A stretch of 48,217 nt of DNA, taken from the NCBI GenBank assembly GCA_013373545.1, contig JABXHQ010000059.1:1-48217 (forward strand), in the 5' to 3' direction. Shown in pieces: positions 12,335 through 24,038 of the stretch (its first letter is position 1; each line of letters opens with the position of its first letter). The notes beneath the pieces were generated by a model. The model was given only the letters and a program-made list of their open reading frames with translations. It had not been told where the DNA came from and searched no databases. The translations under genes were made by a program, and so were the position numbers. Origin of the DNA: Gammaproteobacteria bacterium (lineage in GTDB: Bacteria > Pseudomonadota > Gammaproteobacteria > Enterobacterales > Kangiellaceae).

Positions 12335-12898
12335 TTAGTAGTAAAAACCAACGTTTAGTGCGATGGTTTCGACATCATAATTAACACCATTGTAAAACGA
12401 ATCTTCAGCTTCTGGTAAAATAAGGTAGCTCAGCTCGACATAAAAGTCGCGCGCGTCGTAGCCCGCTGAAAAGCCATAAGAAAGACCGAAGTTGTACTCC
12501 ATCTCATCCTCATAACCGCCTGCGGTATAAGCAAACTGAGTACCAATCAAACCAAGCTTGCCTTTGACGTAAAAATCGTCATTAGTACGCGCTACCAAAT
12601 AGCCGCCAATACCGTTAACTTTAGTGTCTACATCCACCGTAAATGGGTTAACTGCATCCGGTACAGAATCACCGTCAGTCGCAAAAGTCATAAACAACTC
12701 AGCTGACCAATTCGGTTCAAACTGGTAACCCCATGCACCACCAATAGTCATATAAGAGTAATCTAAACCACCGCCGGTATACGATGTGTTGTTTTGACCT
12801 AAATGAAGCTCTAAATAACCTTCACCTTGAAATTCACTGGCATTGGTCGCCGTTGTTACCGCTAAACCAAACACAAGACATAATGCTTTATAGTTCAT
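12335..12898 (-). CDS. Small outer-membrane beta-barrel protein (porin-family/OmpA-like barrel)
   Basis: 187 residues with a signal peptide (LCLVFGLAVTTATNA, cleavage likely before SEF), then alternating amphipathic strands and a terminal aromatic residue (GFYY), the usual mark for BamA-dependent insertion. The pattern is an eight-stranded barrel of the 'porin family / outer membrane beta-barrel' type; no ligand can be inferred. I choose the ATG at 12898 over the one at 12904 because an AGGGA lies 6 bases upstream of it but abuts the first ATG directly. The gene stands alone with its own terminator, between tRNA-Leu and the repair gene. Confidence 0.82.
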   Translation of the reverse strand: MNYKALCLVFGLAVTTATNASEFQGEGYLELHLGQNNTSYTGGGLDYSYMTIGGAWGYQFEPNWSAELFMTFATDGDSVPDAVNPFTVDVDTKVNGIGGYLVARTNDDFYVKGKLGLIGTQFAYTAGGYEDEMEYNFGLSYGFSAGYDARDFYVELSYLILPEAEDSFYNGVNYDVETIALNVGFYY

Positions 12899-13005
12899 AT
12901 TCATTCCCTAAAAAATATTTGAAAAAATACCCCAAGCTGTGGGGACGCGCATTATATCAAAAAAAGAGATTTCGACACCCACTTTACTCACTTAAAAACC
13001 GTAAA

Positions 13006-13065: not shown

Positions 13066-13151
13066 TGGTGCCCAGGGCCGGACTTGAACCGGCACGGCCT
13101 ACGGCCACTACCCCCTCAAGATAGCGTGTCTACCAATTCCACCACCTGGGC
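13066..13151 (-). tRNA. tRNA-Leu (anticodon GAG)
   Basis: 86-base class II tRNA with an encoded CCA. The acceptor arm is GCCCAGG/CCTGGGC with discriminator A, the D-loop begins GGTGGTGGAATTGGTAGAC, and the T-arm contains GGTTCAAGTCC. The anticodon stem is CTATC/GGTAG with one G-U pair and loop TTGAGGG, giving GAG, which reads CUC and CUU. A long variable arm (GTGGCCGTAGGCCGTGC) is present as expected for leucine. It sits 28 bases after secG, the same order (secG, tRNA-Leu GAG) as in many gammaproteobacteria including E. coli leuU. Confidence 0.97.
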
Positions 13152-14510: not shown

Positions 14511-16601
14511 TTAACTTTCGCTATTGGCCACCCACAAAGAGGGTGAGAACTCTTCAATAAAGCTTAAAAACTCACCTTCCGGCAGTCCTTTGCTGACCAG
14601 ATAGCCTTGGATCTCATCACACCCATGGCTGGCGAGAAAGTCCCATTGTTGGCTGGTCTCAACCCCCTCGGCCACTACTTTTAAGCGCAAACTTTTAGCC
14701 ATCGAGATAATCGCCAAAGTAATCGCCGTATCATCAGGATCAACACAGACTTCATCAATAAAAGTACGATCGATTTTCAGTGAGTCCAAGGGGAAGCGGC
14801 GTAAATAGCTCAATGATGAGTAACCAGTTCCGAAGTCGTCAATGGCAATTTGCAACCCCATACGCTTCATTCGCTGCAAGGTTTTAATTGCTTGTTCGAC
14901 ATCACGCATCAACATACTTTCGGTGATCTCAAGCTCCAAGGCACTGGGAGTTAAATCGTGCTTGAGCAGTATTTTTTTGATCGATTCAGGTAAGTCCGAT
15001 TGACGAAATTGCAGCGCCGATAAGTTCACCGATACTTTAATATCGCCATGCCCTTGCTTGCGCCAATGCGCCGCATCAGCACAAGCGCGGTCGATAACCC
15101 ACATTCCGATCGACTTAATCAACCCTGTACTCTCGGCAATTGGGACAAATTCTGCTGGCGAAATAAATCCTAATTCACCATGAGTCCATCGCAGCAGCGC
15201 CTCAGCACCAATCACTTTGCCATGCGCCAGCGCGACCTGAGGCTGATACACTAAGCTCAGCTCACCTTTATCGATGGCAACCCGCAGATCGTTGGCGATG
15301 CGGTGGCGACGCAGCGCTAGCTCATTCATCTCCGACTCATAAAAAGCATAGGTATTGCGACCGACTTCTTTAGCTTTATACATGGCGGCATCAGCAGCCT
15401 TCATTAATTCATCAACATCATTGCCATCATTCGGATATACACAAACACCTACGCTGACCGTTGAATTCACCACATAATTAGACAAATTAAAGTGCATGTT
15501 GAAATTCTCAACGATTTTTTCAACCACGGTAATAATATCTTCGGTGTCATCCACTTCATTCAAAATGATCACAAACTCGTCGCCGCCGAGCCGCGCCAAG
15601 GTGTCTTCATCACGTAAAATGGCTTGCAGTCGCTTGCTTGACGCTTTTAAAAGCTCATCACCCACTGCATGTCCAAGGGAATCATTCACATCTTTAAAGT
15701 GGTCAAGGTCGAGGAACAACAGCGCGGCATAAGTGCGCGTGCGAGAGGCCCGTTTCAGCGCATAGCGAATCCGATCCATACACAGCGCCCGGTTCGGCAA
15801 CTGGGTCAAGGAGTCATAGTTAGCTAAGTACTGGAGATCTTTAACCGCTCGCTCCAACCGCCGTTTGTTGAGCTGTAAAGCCTCTTCCGCCGCGTCCCGT
15901 TCGCGCTGACGGCGCTCAATGGTTTCGAGCATGTCGTTAAAAGTGCGCGACAGCTTACCAATTTCATCATGGGTGACCACCGGCACGCGCAGCGAATAAT
16001 TTTGACTGGCGCTGACTTGGTGGCTGATGCTTTCTAAGTTAAGGATCGGTTGTGAAATATATTTTTGCATGATGCGGGCGAGTAAATAGGACAACAGCAC
16101 CATCGCCATTAACAACAATAATAAAGAAAGAATAAACGAACGTAGCTTTTCTTTGAGTGAGTCAGTGGATACTTTTAGATACAGTGTCCCTAACTGATCG
16201 CCCAGAGAATCGACAATCGGATGGTACACATGCAGCCACCGATTATCCCAAATCACTTGTTGTTCACGGCGGTAATCGGTCGCCGATATGTAACCGCCAC
16301 CATTTTCAACTTTCGCAAACGTCTCGCCAATGCCTTTAAAGATCGCAATACTGTGATCGGTACTAAGCGAAACTTGATCTAATAACTCCGTTTGCGCCTG
16401 CTCAGGGCGATCATAGGTTATATAAGGTTCACTGTTTTCAGCCAGCAGGTTGGCTTGGGCCAAAGCGTCGTTTTGCAACGACTCCTGCATATTTTGATAA
16501 AAGCTGATTGAAACGACAACAAAACCAATGCTCACCGTGAACATCGAGATGCCCGCAATCACTAAGGTTAGTTTGGTTCGAATCGACGCATTCCAACGCA
16601 T
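14511..16601 (-). CDS. Membrane c-di-GMP enzyme: periplasmic sensor-HAMP-GGDEF-EAL
   Basis: 696 residues. Helices at about 12-34 and 155-177 flank a periplasmic region resembling the CHASE8-type sensor of YfiN/TpbB; HAMP follows at about 178-230, then GGDEF and EAL domains. The GGDEF motif is intact at 339-343, with an inhibitory RxxD site (RDED, 330-333) exactly five residues before it. The EAL domain keeps EALLRW (467-472), NLSALQF, ELEITES, DDFGTGYSSL, KIDRTF and VVAEGVET, so both cyclase and phosphodiesterase activity are possible. The ATG immediately follows the stop of the YfiR-like gene, implying that the two are translationally coupled and form a YfiRN-like signalling pair. Which activity dominates cannot be told. 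Confidence 0.9.
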   Translation of the reverse strand: MRWNASIRTKLTLVIAGISMFTVSIGFVVVSISFYQNMQESLQNDALAQANLLAENSEPYITYDRPEQAQTELLDQVSLSTDHSIAIFKGIGETFAKVENGGGYISATDYRREQQVIWDNRWLHVYHPIVDSLGDQLGTLYLKVSTDSLKEKLRSFILSLLLLLMAMVLLSYLLARIMQKYISQPILNLESISHQVSASQNYSLRVPVVTHDEIGKLSRTFNDMLETIERRQRERDAAEEALQLNKRRLERAVKDLQYLANYDSLTQLPNRALCMDRIRYALKRASRTRTYAALLFLDLDHFKDVNDSLGHAVGDELLKASSKRLQAILRDEDTLARLGGDEFVIILNEVDDTEDIITVVEKIVENFNMHFNLSNYVVNSTVSVGVCVYPNDGNDVDELMKAADAAMYKAKEVGRNTYAFYESEMNELALRRHRIANDLRVAIDKGELSLVYQPQVALAHGKVIGAEALLRWTHGELGFISPAEFVPIAESTGLIKSIGMWVIDRACADAAHWRKQGHGDIKVSVNLSALQFRQSDLPESIKKILLKHDLTPSALELEITESMLMRDVEQAIKTLQRMKRMGLQIAIDDFGTGYSSLSYLRRFPLDSLKIDRTFIDEVCVDPDDTAITLAIISMAKSLRLKVVAEGVETSQQWDFLASHGCDEIQGYLVSKGLPEGEFLSFIEEFSPSLWVANSES

Positions 16602-17171
16602 TTACTGGCCCCCGCTAGCAGTTGTACCGGGGTAGACTTTTTTGGCATGCTTCAAAAAGTTTACTTTCAGCTCGCTACCGCTGCGCTCAAACGCCGCTTG
16701 GTTGACTTCAATATCAAATTTTTTCGAAGCCCCGACAAACAGTCGAATATGCAGCCCCATTGCAGCACTTTGTTCACTGGAGGCGACAAAAATGGTGTGC
16801 TCCACCAATTTACGTTGAACGATGAGTTGAATTTCACGAACCGATACCTTGCCCACATAAGCCACATGACAAGCTTTAAGATCCGAAAGATCGCGGGTAA
16901 ATTGAAACTCAATGGGTAGTCCGCGTACGGTTTCATCGCGTAGATAGCCGCGGATAAAGGTGTAGTAATCGCGGTCTCGATAAATGCATAGCCGATATGG
17001 GGTGGTGGTCAGGTTGAAATCCGATTCTTTTGGCCAATAAACAAACCCAGGTAAGCGCGATAGAATGGATGAACGGACACGCTCTTCTGTTTCTTGCGCG
17101 CACGCCGCTCCCGCCAAAAATGCGGTTGCGAACAGAATTGTCCATTTTATAATCTTATACACCCAGCCCAC
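16602..17171 (-). CDS. YfiR-family (DUF4154) periplasmic protein
   Basis: 189 residues with a signal peptide ending near GAACAQE and a YfiR-type domain: FVYWPKESDF, YRLCIYRDRDYYTFIRGYL, GLPIEFQFTRDLSDLKACHV and a Gly-rich end. In Pseudomonas, YfiR binds the periplasmic part of the diguanylate cyclase YfiN and keeps it inactive until redox or envelope stress releases it. The partner here is the adjacent GGDEF-EAL protein. Cysteines are few (one in the domain at CIYRD and one at KACHV), so the redox bridge known in YfiR may be partly kept. Divergently oriented to nqrA across a 449-base gap. Confidence 0.82.
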   Translation of the reverse strand: MGWVYKIIKWTILFATAFLAGAACAQETEERVRSSILSRLPGFVYWPKESDFNLTTTPYRLCIYRDRDYYTFIRGYLRDETVRGLPIEFQFTRDLSDLKACHVAYVGKVSVREIQLIVQRKLVEHTIFVASSEQSAAMGLHIRLFVGASKKFDIEVNQAAFERSGSELKVNFLKHAKKVYPGTTASGGQ

Positions 17172-17371: not shown

Positions 17372-17395
17372 CGAGAATTTCTAAGAAATATCTCG
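17372..17395. repeat. 24-base imperfect palindrome upstream of the nqr promoter
   Basis: CGAGA-ATTTC-TAA-GAAAT-(A)-TCTCG, i.e. two 10-base arms around a 3-base centre with one extra base. It sits about 30-55 bases upstream of the -10 hexamer at 17426, where an activator or repressor dimer would bind. The regulator is not identified. As RNA it would also fold as a hairpin, but it is probably outside the transcript. Confidence 0.45.
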
Positions 17396-17402
17396 GGAAA
17401 CT

Positions 17403-17431
17403 GGCGATCCGTTAATCAAAAGCAGTATAAT
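17403..17431 (+). promoter_or_regulatory. Candidate promoter of the nqr operon
   Basis: A perfect TATAAT at 17426-17431. The sequence at the matching -35 distance (GGCGAT, 17403-17408) is not consensus, suggesting an activator-dependent promoter or reliance on the palindrome just upstream. Expected transcript start is near 17438, giving a leader of about 180 bases before nqrA. The rest of the gap from 17172 to 17371 holds the upstream region of the divergent YfiR-like gene; I see no further gene there. Confidence 0.55.
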
Positions 17432-17437
17432 ACGGCG

Positions 17438-17620
17438 CCCTGAATGAGGGAGGCCTTCATTCTTGGAATTCTCATAGCTCAATCACAATTGAAATCAGCA
17501 GGTTTTAATCGAATCTTCGACAAGACCGGGCTGGTTACGTCCTTGTTAAAGCAGGACCGATATGATTGAACTATAGTATTCGTTTTAACTTACAAATGTT
17601 AACGATATCGGCGCAAGCGT
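17438..17620 (+). ncRNA. Structured 5' leader of nqrA (candidate cis-regulatory RNA)
   Basis: A roughly 183-base untranslated leader. Visible pairing: a 5'-terminal hairpin GAATGAGG/CC-T-TCATTC (17442-17462); a long-range stem in which 17473-17485 (CATAGCTCAATCA) pairs with 17563-17576 (TGATTGAACTATAG), 7 continuous bp then a mismatch then 4-5 bp; inside it, GTCCT/AGGAC (17539-17543 with 17553-17557), which is mutually exclusive with ACAAG/CTTGT (17520-17524 with 17542-17546). nqrA has no clear Shine-Dalgarno in the last 20 bases, consistent with control at this level. From memory, a motif called nqrA-Marinomonas has been described upstream of nqrA; whether this is a member needs a covariance search. 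Confidence 0.5.
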
Positions 17621-18964
17621 ATGATTAAAATTAAGAAAGGTTTGGACCTACCCATCTCGGGAGCTCCAGAACAAACGATTGAAACCGCCCAGTCAGTTAC
17701 TCAAGTAGCTGTTCTCGGTGATGATTATGTTGGTATGAAACCAACCATGGAAGTTGAAGAAGGCGCTCAGGTCAAACTTGGCCAAGTCTTGTTCACCGAC
17801 AAGAAAAACCCCGGTGTGAAGTATACTGCTCCAGGCGCGGGTAAAGTGGTCGCTGTGAATCGCGGTGCTAAACGAAAGCTGCTTTCTGTAGTTATCGAAT
17901 TAGCCGGTGATGAAGCCGAGTCCTTTACTGCCTGTGCAGCCGAGAATCTCGGCAGCCTTAGCCGTGAGCAAGTGGTCACCACTATGGTTGACTCTGGCAT
18001 GTGGACAGCGCTACGGACCCGTCCATATTCAAAGATCCCAGCCATTGATGCCACCCCGGATGCTATTTTCGTAACCGCAATTGACACCCACCCGTTAGCC
18101 GCCGATCCAGCCGTGGTGATTAAAGAGCAAAACGATGCGTTTAATCAAGGCTTGCAAGTATTAAGCAAGCTAACGGCAGGTAAAGTATACGTTTGCACCG
18201 CTGCAAACCCTGACTTTACCATCAATACAACGGATCAAATCACCAGCCAAGCTTTTGGTGGCGTGCACCCTGCAGGTCTACCGGGTACTCATATCCACTT
18301 CTTGCATGGCGCGTCGGCAGCACACCCGGTGTGGCACATTGGTTATCAAGATGTAATTGCACTGGCTAAATTAATCACTACCGGTAAACTCGCTACCGAC
18401 CGCGTTGTCGCGCTTGGTGGACCCAGTGCGTTAAAACCACGTTTAGTGAAAACACGCATCGGCGCTTCGTTAAAAGAGTTGTTAGCCGGCGAAGTTGCTT
18501 CTGGTGATGTCCGTAGTATCTCTGGCTCGGTATTTAGCGGATTTTCAGCGACCGGCGCGCGCGCCTTCCTTGGCCGCTACCACAATCAAGTCAGCTTGCT
18601 ACCTGAAGGCCGTGAAAAAGAGTTTTTCGGTTGGATCCATGCTGGTAAAGATAAATTCTCGATTACTCGATCGTTTATTTCTCATCTATTGCCGGGCAAA
18701 AAATTCGACTTCACCACCACTACCGGTGGTAGTGAGCGCGCCATCATGCCGATCGGAAGCTATGAGCGCATAATGCCTCTCGACATTCTCGCCACACAAT
18801 TGCTGCGAGCATTAGTGAGTAACGATACTGACACCGCGCAACAACTCGGTTGCTTGGAGTTAGACGAGGAAGACCTCGCATTAGCAACTTATGTGTGCCC
18901 AGGTAAGTTCGAATATGGACCGATCCTGCGTAACGCATTGAACACGATAGAGAAGGAAGGGTAA
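17621..18964 (+). CDS. nqrA: Na+-translocating NADH:quinone reductase subunit A
   Basis: Peripheral subunit of the sodium-pumping Nqr complex, implicated in quinone binding. 447 residues, matching Vibrio NqrA (about 446). The start [18 protein letters not shown] is typical, and the [17 protein letters not shown] region is conserved. No flavin or metal motif is expected in this subunit. Its stop (TAA) shares a base with the nqrB start. First gene of a six-gene operon on the plus strand behind the long structured leader. Confidence 0.97.
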
Positions 18965-23474: not shown

Positions 23475-24038
23475 ATGAGCGACCTATTATTATTCATTTC
23501 TTTATTCGCCAGTATCGCGGCCGCGACTTTATTGTATTTAAAAAATCGTCAACTCAAACGCGTGATTACTCAACTCACTCGGCTTGATCCAGTATCAAAA
23601 GTACCTAACCGTTTAGCCATCATGCAAGACTTGGAACTAGCTTTTTCTCTTGCTAAACGCTACCAACTTCCATTCACACTTGGCATGATTTTAATTCCGC
23701 GAAAAAGCACTCAAGACAGCAAAGAAGTACTACGACCATTTGCCCAAGCCATTAATCTGTTGCTACGGGAAACGGACCTGTTCGGACGCTTGAGTGACGA
23801 CACCTTTATCGTTGCGCTAACGCACACCAATACTCATGATGCTCGCGCCGTCGTCGAGCGTTTATTAAACCACCAGCCAATTGAAAAACACGCGCCGATT
23901 TATATTGGCATGAGCCACTTAACTCAGTCCACTACAACACTGTCTAACTTAATAAAAAATTGCCGCAATGCACTAAACAGCGCTAAAGAAAGTCCAACTT
24001 CTACGGTACAATATCACTCTGACGAACCGACTCAATAA
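23475..24038 (+). CDS. Membrane-anchored degenerate GGDEF-domain protein
   Basis: 187 residues: one transmembrane helix at about 4-22, a short basic linker, then a GGDEF-type domain. The domain start LTRLDPVSKVPNRLAIMQDL matches the D-x-LTxLPNR signature. Where GGDEF should be the sequence reads SDDTF (residues 107-111), so cyclase activity is very unlikely, but RxxD (RETD, 98-101) sits exactly five residues before it, the spacing of the c-di-GMP inhibitory site. It may therefore bind c-di-GMP without making it. It begins 27 bases after the nqrF terminator and is 8 bases from apbE, so it probably belongs to the apbE-nqrM unit. No such gene is a known Nqr component. Confidence 0.75.
   Translation: MSDLLLFISLFASIAAATLLYLKNRQLKRVITQLTRLDPVSKVPNRLAIMQDLELAFSLAKRYQLPFTLGMILIPRKSTQDSKEVLRPFAQAINLLLRETDLFGRLSDDTFIVALTHTNTHDARAVVERLLNHQPIEKHAPIYIGMSHLTQSTTTLSNLIKNCRNALNSAKESPTSTVQYHSDEPTQ

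Follow-up and report, generated by a model that had tools for sequence, protein, structure and literature searches.

The nqrA gene of Pleionea is preceded by a leader whose RNA structure is probably genuine, restricted to the genus and ordinary in kind, judging by sequence comparison. The reading that we favour, with a probability of roughly 40%, is that of a structured 5′ untranslated region (UTR) that protects the nqr mRNA and spaces a start codon without a Shine–Dalgarno (SD) sequence; we infer the transcription of this leader, its aid to stability or translation and any regulation alike. Such a stabilising, spacing leader is favoured over a riboswitch, which we consider unlikely, because most of the loops are variable, a hairpin (P1) is predicted right at the 5′ end, the AUG is predicted to be open and the SD sequence is weak.

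The window analysed here is a stretch of 48,217 nucleotides from a marine bacterium of the Kangiellaceae (GenBank assembly GCA_013373545.1, contig JABXHQ010000059.1), and all coordinates refer to it.

The nqrA Locus and Its Distal Promoter

The nqrA gene (17621–18964, + strand) is the first gene of the nqr cluster, followed by nqrB, and encodes a 447-residue NqrA protein that scores 720.9 bits against the NCBIfam NqrA equivalog (cut-off 505). The leader lies immediately upstream. The nearest named relative of this nqrA in the species collection is that of Pleionea mediterranea (79%), and the leader DNA is matched in four genomes of the same genus at 82, 75, 74 and 73% identity, the last over the 3′ part only. 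Relatives of nqrA itself are present in all 40 Kangiellaceae genomes.

The distal promoter (Table 1) has counterparts throughout this family: TATAAT is found 174–258 nt before nqrA in 40 of the 40 genomes, with GCGC no more than 8 nt after it in 38. GC-rich discriminators are of the kind found on growth-rate-controlled promoters. From the conserved TATAAT and the GC-rich discriminator after it, a transcript start near 17438 and therefore a leader of about 183 nt can be predicted, a good prediction and one that agrees with the roughly 180 untranslated bases of the preliminary description. In Shewanella oneidensis, Crp and ArcA control nqr at the level of transcription (PMC12210985), and an RNA switch is therefore not required to account for regulation.

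The surroundings of the locus show two further features. Divergent from nqr lie genes for a YfiR-like and a HAMP-GGDEF-EAL protein (14511–17171, − strand), and a 187-residue GGDEF-domain protein (23475–24038, + strand; Pfam E 8.2e-16) is encoded between nqrF and an apbE-like gene, so that c-di-GMP genes both flank and enter the nqr cluster. The 187-residue protein has no intact GGDEF motif by eye and is probably degenerate; its orthologues in four relatives are 31–44% identical. A gene at 12335–12904 (− strand) adjoins tRNA-Leu(gag) (13066–13151) and has a homologue in the syntenic stretch of one Pleionea genome, G036 (51%), with none at E ≤ 1e-10 in the syntenic stretches of G037–G039; an insertion beside the tRNA is possible.

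Structure of the Leader

Table 1. Elements of the nqrA leader and the sequence before it.
Element	Position	Strand	Remarks
Distal promoter, −10 box	17426–17431	+	TATAAT; followed by GC-rich discriminator ACGGCGCC (17432–17439)
P1, 5′-terminal hairpin	17442–17462 (consensus 17442–17449/17455–17462)	+	paired in 97.5% of cells; double changes in 2 of 8 pairs
Upstream ATG ORF	17444–17569	+	41 codons; judged to be chance
P2 closing stem, 5′ arm	17466–17485	+	pairs with 3′ arm 17563–17581
P2 closing stem, 3′ arm	17563–17581	+	seen in the alignment, the sister genus and the window fold
P3, long hairpin	17493–17536	+	upper part 17501–17512/17517–17527; lower part 17493–17499/17530–17536 in the window
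P4, short hairpin	17539–17557 (17539–17543/17553–17557)	+	paired in 80% of cells; double changes in 2 of the 4 counted pairs
Promoter-like element inside the structure	17551–17577	+	GCA (17551–17553), 18 nt, TATAGT (17572–17577)
P5, weak hairpin	17585–17602 (17585–17589/17598–17602)	+	paired in 84% of cells; no double change

The structure was assessed in an alignment of five Pleionea species (the window and G036–G039). A model of 45 pairs has 202 of 224 cells paired, a figure that is inflated by the derivation of the model from the same alignment. Twelve of the pairs have changed on both sides, compared to a shuffle mean of 5.6 ± 1.7, and none of 500 shuffles reached as many. In a control in which the partners were slid by 1–3 columns, 28–45% of the cells were paired and 0–4 pairs changed on both sides. 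Half of the doubly changed pairs (6 of 12) reside in P3, with two each in P1, P2 and P4. Of the 14 doubly changed cells, six come from the most divergent contributor, G039, as do 10 of the 22 that are unpaired; when this species is left out, pairing holds in 168 of 180 cells, and only four pairs keep changes on both sides.

The arms 17473–17485 and 17563–17576, originally proposed to close a domain, do pair, with a single C17478·A17570 mismatch, and belong to a larger fold that comprises P1–P5. In the window, P2 is made of 17479–17485/17563–17569 (7 bp), 17474–17477/17571–17574 and 17471–17472/17575–17576, and is extended by 17466–17469/17578–17581. Over the five species, it comprises 17 pairs with 95.3% of cells paired, 12 of them invariant and two changed on both sides; the informative series, at columns 43/148, runs A-U, G-U, G-C. 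P3 has 11 counted pairs with 83.3% of cells paired, and its lower part is taken solely from the minimum free energy fold of the window. P4 is moderately supported across Pleionea.

The P1–P4 domain (17441–17585) has a folding energy of −48.4 kcal/mol, which none of 200 shuffles equalled (z −4.04), and the fold of 17438–17650 has a z of −3.34. The opposite strand also folds strongly (z −5.26). A hint as to the strand comes from the 21 G·U cells against 4 A·C cells, which favour the nqr strand. Two other pairings were set aside: 17435–17439/17610–17614, between the 5′ end and the region before the start, is predicted in five of five Pleionea but never varies, is thus uninformative and was excluded from the model, and a 7-bp helix, 17557–17563/17605–17611, exists in the window and by eye is lost in most relatives.

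In the sister genus, represented by G014, the P2 arm re-pairs at eight of nine positions, with U-A replaced by C-G, C-G by U-A and one U-G, in a register that was set by hand; the covariance model R1 aligns the G014 P2 in a different, mismatched register. The G014 leader was missed by the R1 search with default filters. With the filters off, nothing else in its set of loci matches R1 better, although the match is weak (15.7 bits, E 0.062 over 34.9 kb). Within the family, R1 finds the leader once per genome, at nqrA, in five of five Pleionea and thus five of 40 genomes, with weak matches away from nqrA in G003 (E 0.41) and G019 (E 0.95). In a sample of the order, it was found in four of 295 genomes, all of this genus, under stricter filters by which weak matches are lost.

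Controls and Other Lineages

As a control, 34 of the 38 genes of the syntenic region in the five genomes had their 180-nt upstream alignments, many of them coding, compared with column shuffles; the other four genes lacked five usable upstream stretches and were dropped. The nqrA upstream region ranks second of the 34 (z −4.84 at 180 nt), behind a region (z −7.34) that holds a tRNA-Leu in three of its five rows. Four control regions without a tRNA reach −4.17, −3.67, −3.18 and −3.01. The margin of nqrA is therefore modest, and values between −3 and −4 are not special.

Alignments of 200 nt give z −6.85 for Pleionea, −7.50 for Pleionea with the sister genus, and −4.17 and −5.93 for two groups of Kangiella. 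In two other genera of the family, g2 (Aliikangiella-type) and g3, a consensus structure was not detected (z 0.06 and −0.03), though their leaders align poorly. Elsewhere, the values are −4.08 for Halomonas, −3.37 for Pseudoalteromonas, −3.34 for Idiomarina, −1.92 for the Rheinheimera group, −1.88 for the Onishia group, −1.45 for Catenovulum, −0.07 for Alteromonas and 0.48 for the Pseudomonas group. Since control regions reach −3 to −4.17, nothing is claimed for Halomonas and the other outside lineages. The alignment groups took 67 of the 80 nqrA loci (13 omitted); L103 (five of six used in the group Kang2) and L120 were omitted as well. For single sequences (190 nt before nqrA, 40 shuffles), z falls below −2 in four of five Pleionea, 16 of 20 Kangiella, one of seven g2 and none of six g3, and in 17 of the 80 wider loci, some of which are records of the same family.

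The Kangiella leaders have their promoter position and discriminator as in Pleionea; they too have a hairpin P1, and a further, internal hairpin shows compensatory changes. A conserved hairpin, CUGGUU...ACCAG, is paired in 14 of 14 Kangiella leaders (L096, L098–L102, L104, L108, L110 and L113–L117), with two compensatory columns (GC:8/AU:6 and CG:7/UA:7) that may reflect few events; its count of doubly changed pairs is not above that of shuffles. Two Kangiella loci scanned against Rfam gave no match.

A Promoter-Like Element and an Upstream ORF

The sequence CTATAGT (17571–17577) sits in the 3′ arm of P2, and the TATAGT within it makes for a serious rival to the leader reading. The 3′ arm of P2 could be conserved as a proximal promoter, one of a tandem pair, with a start near 17584; the main nqr transcript would then lack the structure, and the fold would be partly a by-product. 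Of the 40 family genomes, 19 have a CTATAGT-like element at a distance of 37–50 nt from nqrA on its upstream side, genera without a detectable leader structure among them, and in 15 of these 19, GCA lies exactly 18 nt before TATAGT. TATAGT itself is a good −10 box. However, the GCA element is not TTGACA-like and makes a poor −35 box, a consensus scan lists no + strand site there, and the element is absent from all 20 Kangiella. Tandem promoters also leave the double changes in P1, P3 and P4 unexplained. In G039, the box reads TACAGT and pairs G-C where the other species have A-U or G-U, which mildly favours the RNA reading. We regard the tandem-promoter reading as rather unlikely. The two roles, promoter and RNA arm, can coexist in one stretch: CTATAGT may be a second promoter, and a transcript starting from it, downstream of 17576, would speak against the leader architecture of the preliminary description.

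Control of nqrA by translation of a leader peptide is very improbable. The ORF that would encode it, starting at the ATG at 17444, is open for 41, 44 and 46 codons in the window, G036 and G039, respectively, but in G038 it is open for 24 codons, and G037 and the sister genus lack any ATG ORF that reaches 15 codons. Furthermore, only some 6 nt separate its start from the inferred 5′ end, and a terminator-like site was not seen in the leader. The ORF was rejected on account of its poor conservation.

The Riboswitch Reading

The P2/P3/P4 domain could act as a riboswitch or another ligand- or protein-responsive cis-regulator that senses Na+, flavin, redox state or a protein and alters nqrA expression. 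Its position directly before nqrA, its junctions and the single significant R1 copy at nqrA in each Pleionea genome are in keeping with this, and candidate motifs before nqrA have been published for Marinomonas and Pasteurellaceae (PMC11109978).

The initial argument for a switch was a pair of mutually exclusive helices, P4 and 17520–17524/17542–17546. Both 5-bp helices exist, and they overlap at 17542–17543, but nothing indicates that the exclusivity carries meaning. Of 200 shuffles, 132 contain one or more clashes of local (span ≤ 40) Watson–Crick 5-bp helices, and the three conflicts observed compare to a shuffle mean of 1.9. The alternative helix (17520–17546, + strand) is perfect in the window; over the five Pleionea, 66.7% of its cells are paired (15–50% for slides), with no double change. 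It is thus not conserved, and an exclusive pair of this kind is expected by chance. Among the helices first singled out, P2 and P4 contain double changes between relatives, whereas the alternative helix contains none.

Mean identity over the five species is 0.94 for the P2 pairs and 0.88 for the P1 pairs, against 0.47–0.60 for the P1 loop, the P3 loop, J2/3 and J4/2, and 0.62 for the P4 loop. The unpaired columns of the P2-closed domain are thus mostly variable; the conserved ones are J3/4 (0.82) and, within the P4 loop, a GCA, both of which may be counted in favour of a riboswitch. A conserved unpaired ligand-binding core as found in riboswitches was not seen in the five species, J3/4 being the exception. 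As far as five species can show, variable loops on stems that are kept fit better with selection for shape than with a ligand pocket. In addition, the leader yielded no terminator-like site, the AUG is predicted to be open, and Rfam gives no match (see below). The comparative data hence support the structured leader under selection that had been envisaged, but, given the alternative helix and the variable loops, they do not support the switching architecture, and the riboswitch claim for this leader is unsupported.

A more elaborate proposal is that the leader belongs to a third class of cis-regulatory RNA at nqrA, one that arose independently and is confined to Pleionea and its sister genus, which would sense the output of the pump (Na+ or quinone/flavin redox state) and whose closing stem would double as the −10 box of the second promoter. 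We consider this improbable, more so than a riboswitch in general.

Translation Start and Proposed Function

As the preliminary description had noted, nqrA has no obvious SD sequence: its SD energy is very weak, at −1.7 kcal/mol, 28th of 30 among the ATG-start ORFs tested in the window. Weak energies (−3.4 to +1.8 kcal/mol) are the rule across the 40 Kangiellaceae genomes. The nqrA starts of these genomes (L090–L129) share the start context UAUGAU in 40 of 40 cases, and none has a useful SD sequence. The AUG is predicted to be paired with a probability of 0.06–0.10 in Pleionea and 0.20 in the sister genus, and the 20 nt before it (−20 to −1) are predicted to be partly paired (0.36–0.72).

At the other end, P1 is a predicted hairpin that spans nt 1/2–29 of the inferred transcript in six of six Pleionea and sister-genus leaders. 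A 5′-terminal hairpin is predicted in 39 of 40 leaders of the family, where 24.0 are expected from shuffles; in energy, however, the P1 region does not stand out in any of the five Pleionea (z −0.2 to −1.4).

The leader most likely works mechanically, because P1, P3 and P4 keep their pairing while their letters change and most of the loops vary. In the stabilising model, the nqr mRNA would start at the conserved distal promoter and carry the leader of about 180 nt, which would fold with P1 at its 5′ end, followed by P2 closing a domain that holds P3 and P4, and leave the AUG open. P1 would mask the 5′ end from 5′-end-dependent decay, and the P2 domain would hold the leader away from the SD-less start, which would rely on its AU-rich surroundings.

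Comparison with Known Systems

Against Rfam 15, neither the window nor 20 nqrA loci gave a match at gathering score, and relaxing the threshold to E ≤ 10 for 17380–17650 brought up none either. The nqrA-II model (RF04310) exceeds its cut-off (55 bits) in none of the 40 Kangiellaceae genomes and has no match at the window leader, and the early suggestion of a diverged member of a named motif finds no support in these searches. The best nqrA-II match, below threshold (L137, G038:C15:494403-494496; 38.8 bits, E 2e-4), lies on a contig other than that of nqrA; weak scores on the overlapping opposite strand suggest a plain inverted repeat. The open-licence papers searched yielded no description of such a leader from Pleionea or Kangiella. 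As far as Rfam and the literature searched go, the leader is new as an individual; its kind is that of the nqrA leaders of Marinomonas and Pasteurellaceae.

Structured RNAs before nqrA have already been reported in two other lineages, and the two RNAs do not resemble each other (PMC11109978). One more leader confined to its own lineage points to a repeated emergence of post-transcriptional control, or of protection, for the mRNA of the sodium pump. Were the third-class reading true, nqrA would be a gene that repeatedly acquires leader RNAs of its own. The system is compact and testable, with one leader and one operon, and is present in a strain-collection species, P. mediterranea DSM 25350.

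In the E. coli ompA leader, a 5′ hairpin masks the 5′ end from 5′-end-dependent decay. The nqrA leader resembles this type in that its inferred transcript is predicted to open with a hairpin and to leave the AUG unpaired. A review counts stem-loops and 5′ UTRs among the features that protect mRNAs, with 5′ UTR stem-loops stabilising recA and vacA; it ties the stability of ompA without a start codon to a strong SD sequence (PMC7509114), whereas nqrA here has none and its stabilisation is a prediction.

The nqrA leaders of Kangiella differ from those of Pleionea in that their helices could not be aligned with the Pleionea ones and R1 has no match there. The Marinomonas nqrA motif (Weinberg et al. 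2017, as cited in PMC11109978) is likewise a rare, genus-restricted structured RNA before nqrA; it is compared here by description. No Rfam family matched, in a library whose coverage of this motif is unconfirmed. The nqrA-II motif has 36 representatives, in Pasteurellaceae, and four stem-loops with covariation; the same paper reports no similarity between it and the Marinomonas motif and proposes both as possible riboswitches, which may sense the same ligand (PMC11109978). The hosts of nqrA-II are different and its model scores below cut-off in Kangiellaceae, but it shares with the Pleionea leader a similar length (174 model positions), a place directly before nqrA and, as described in that paper, a restriction to one family (PMC11109978).
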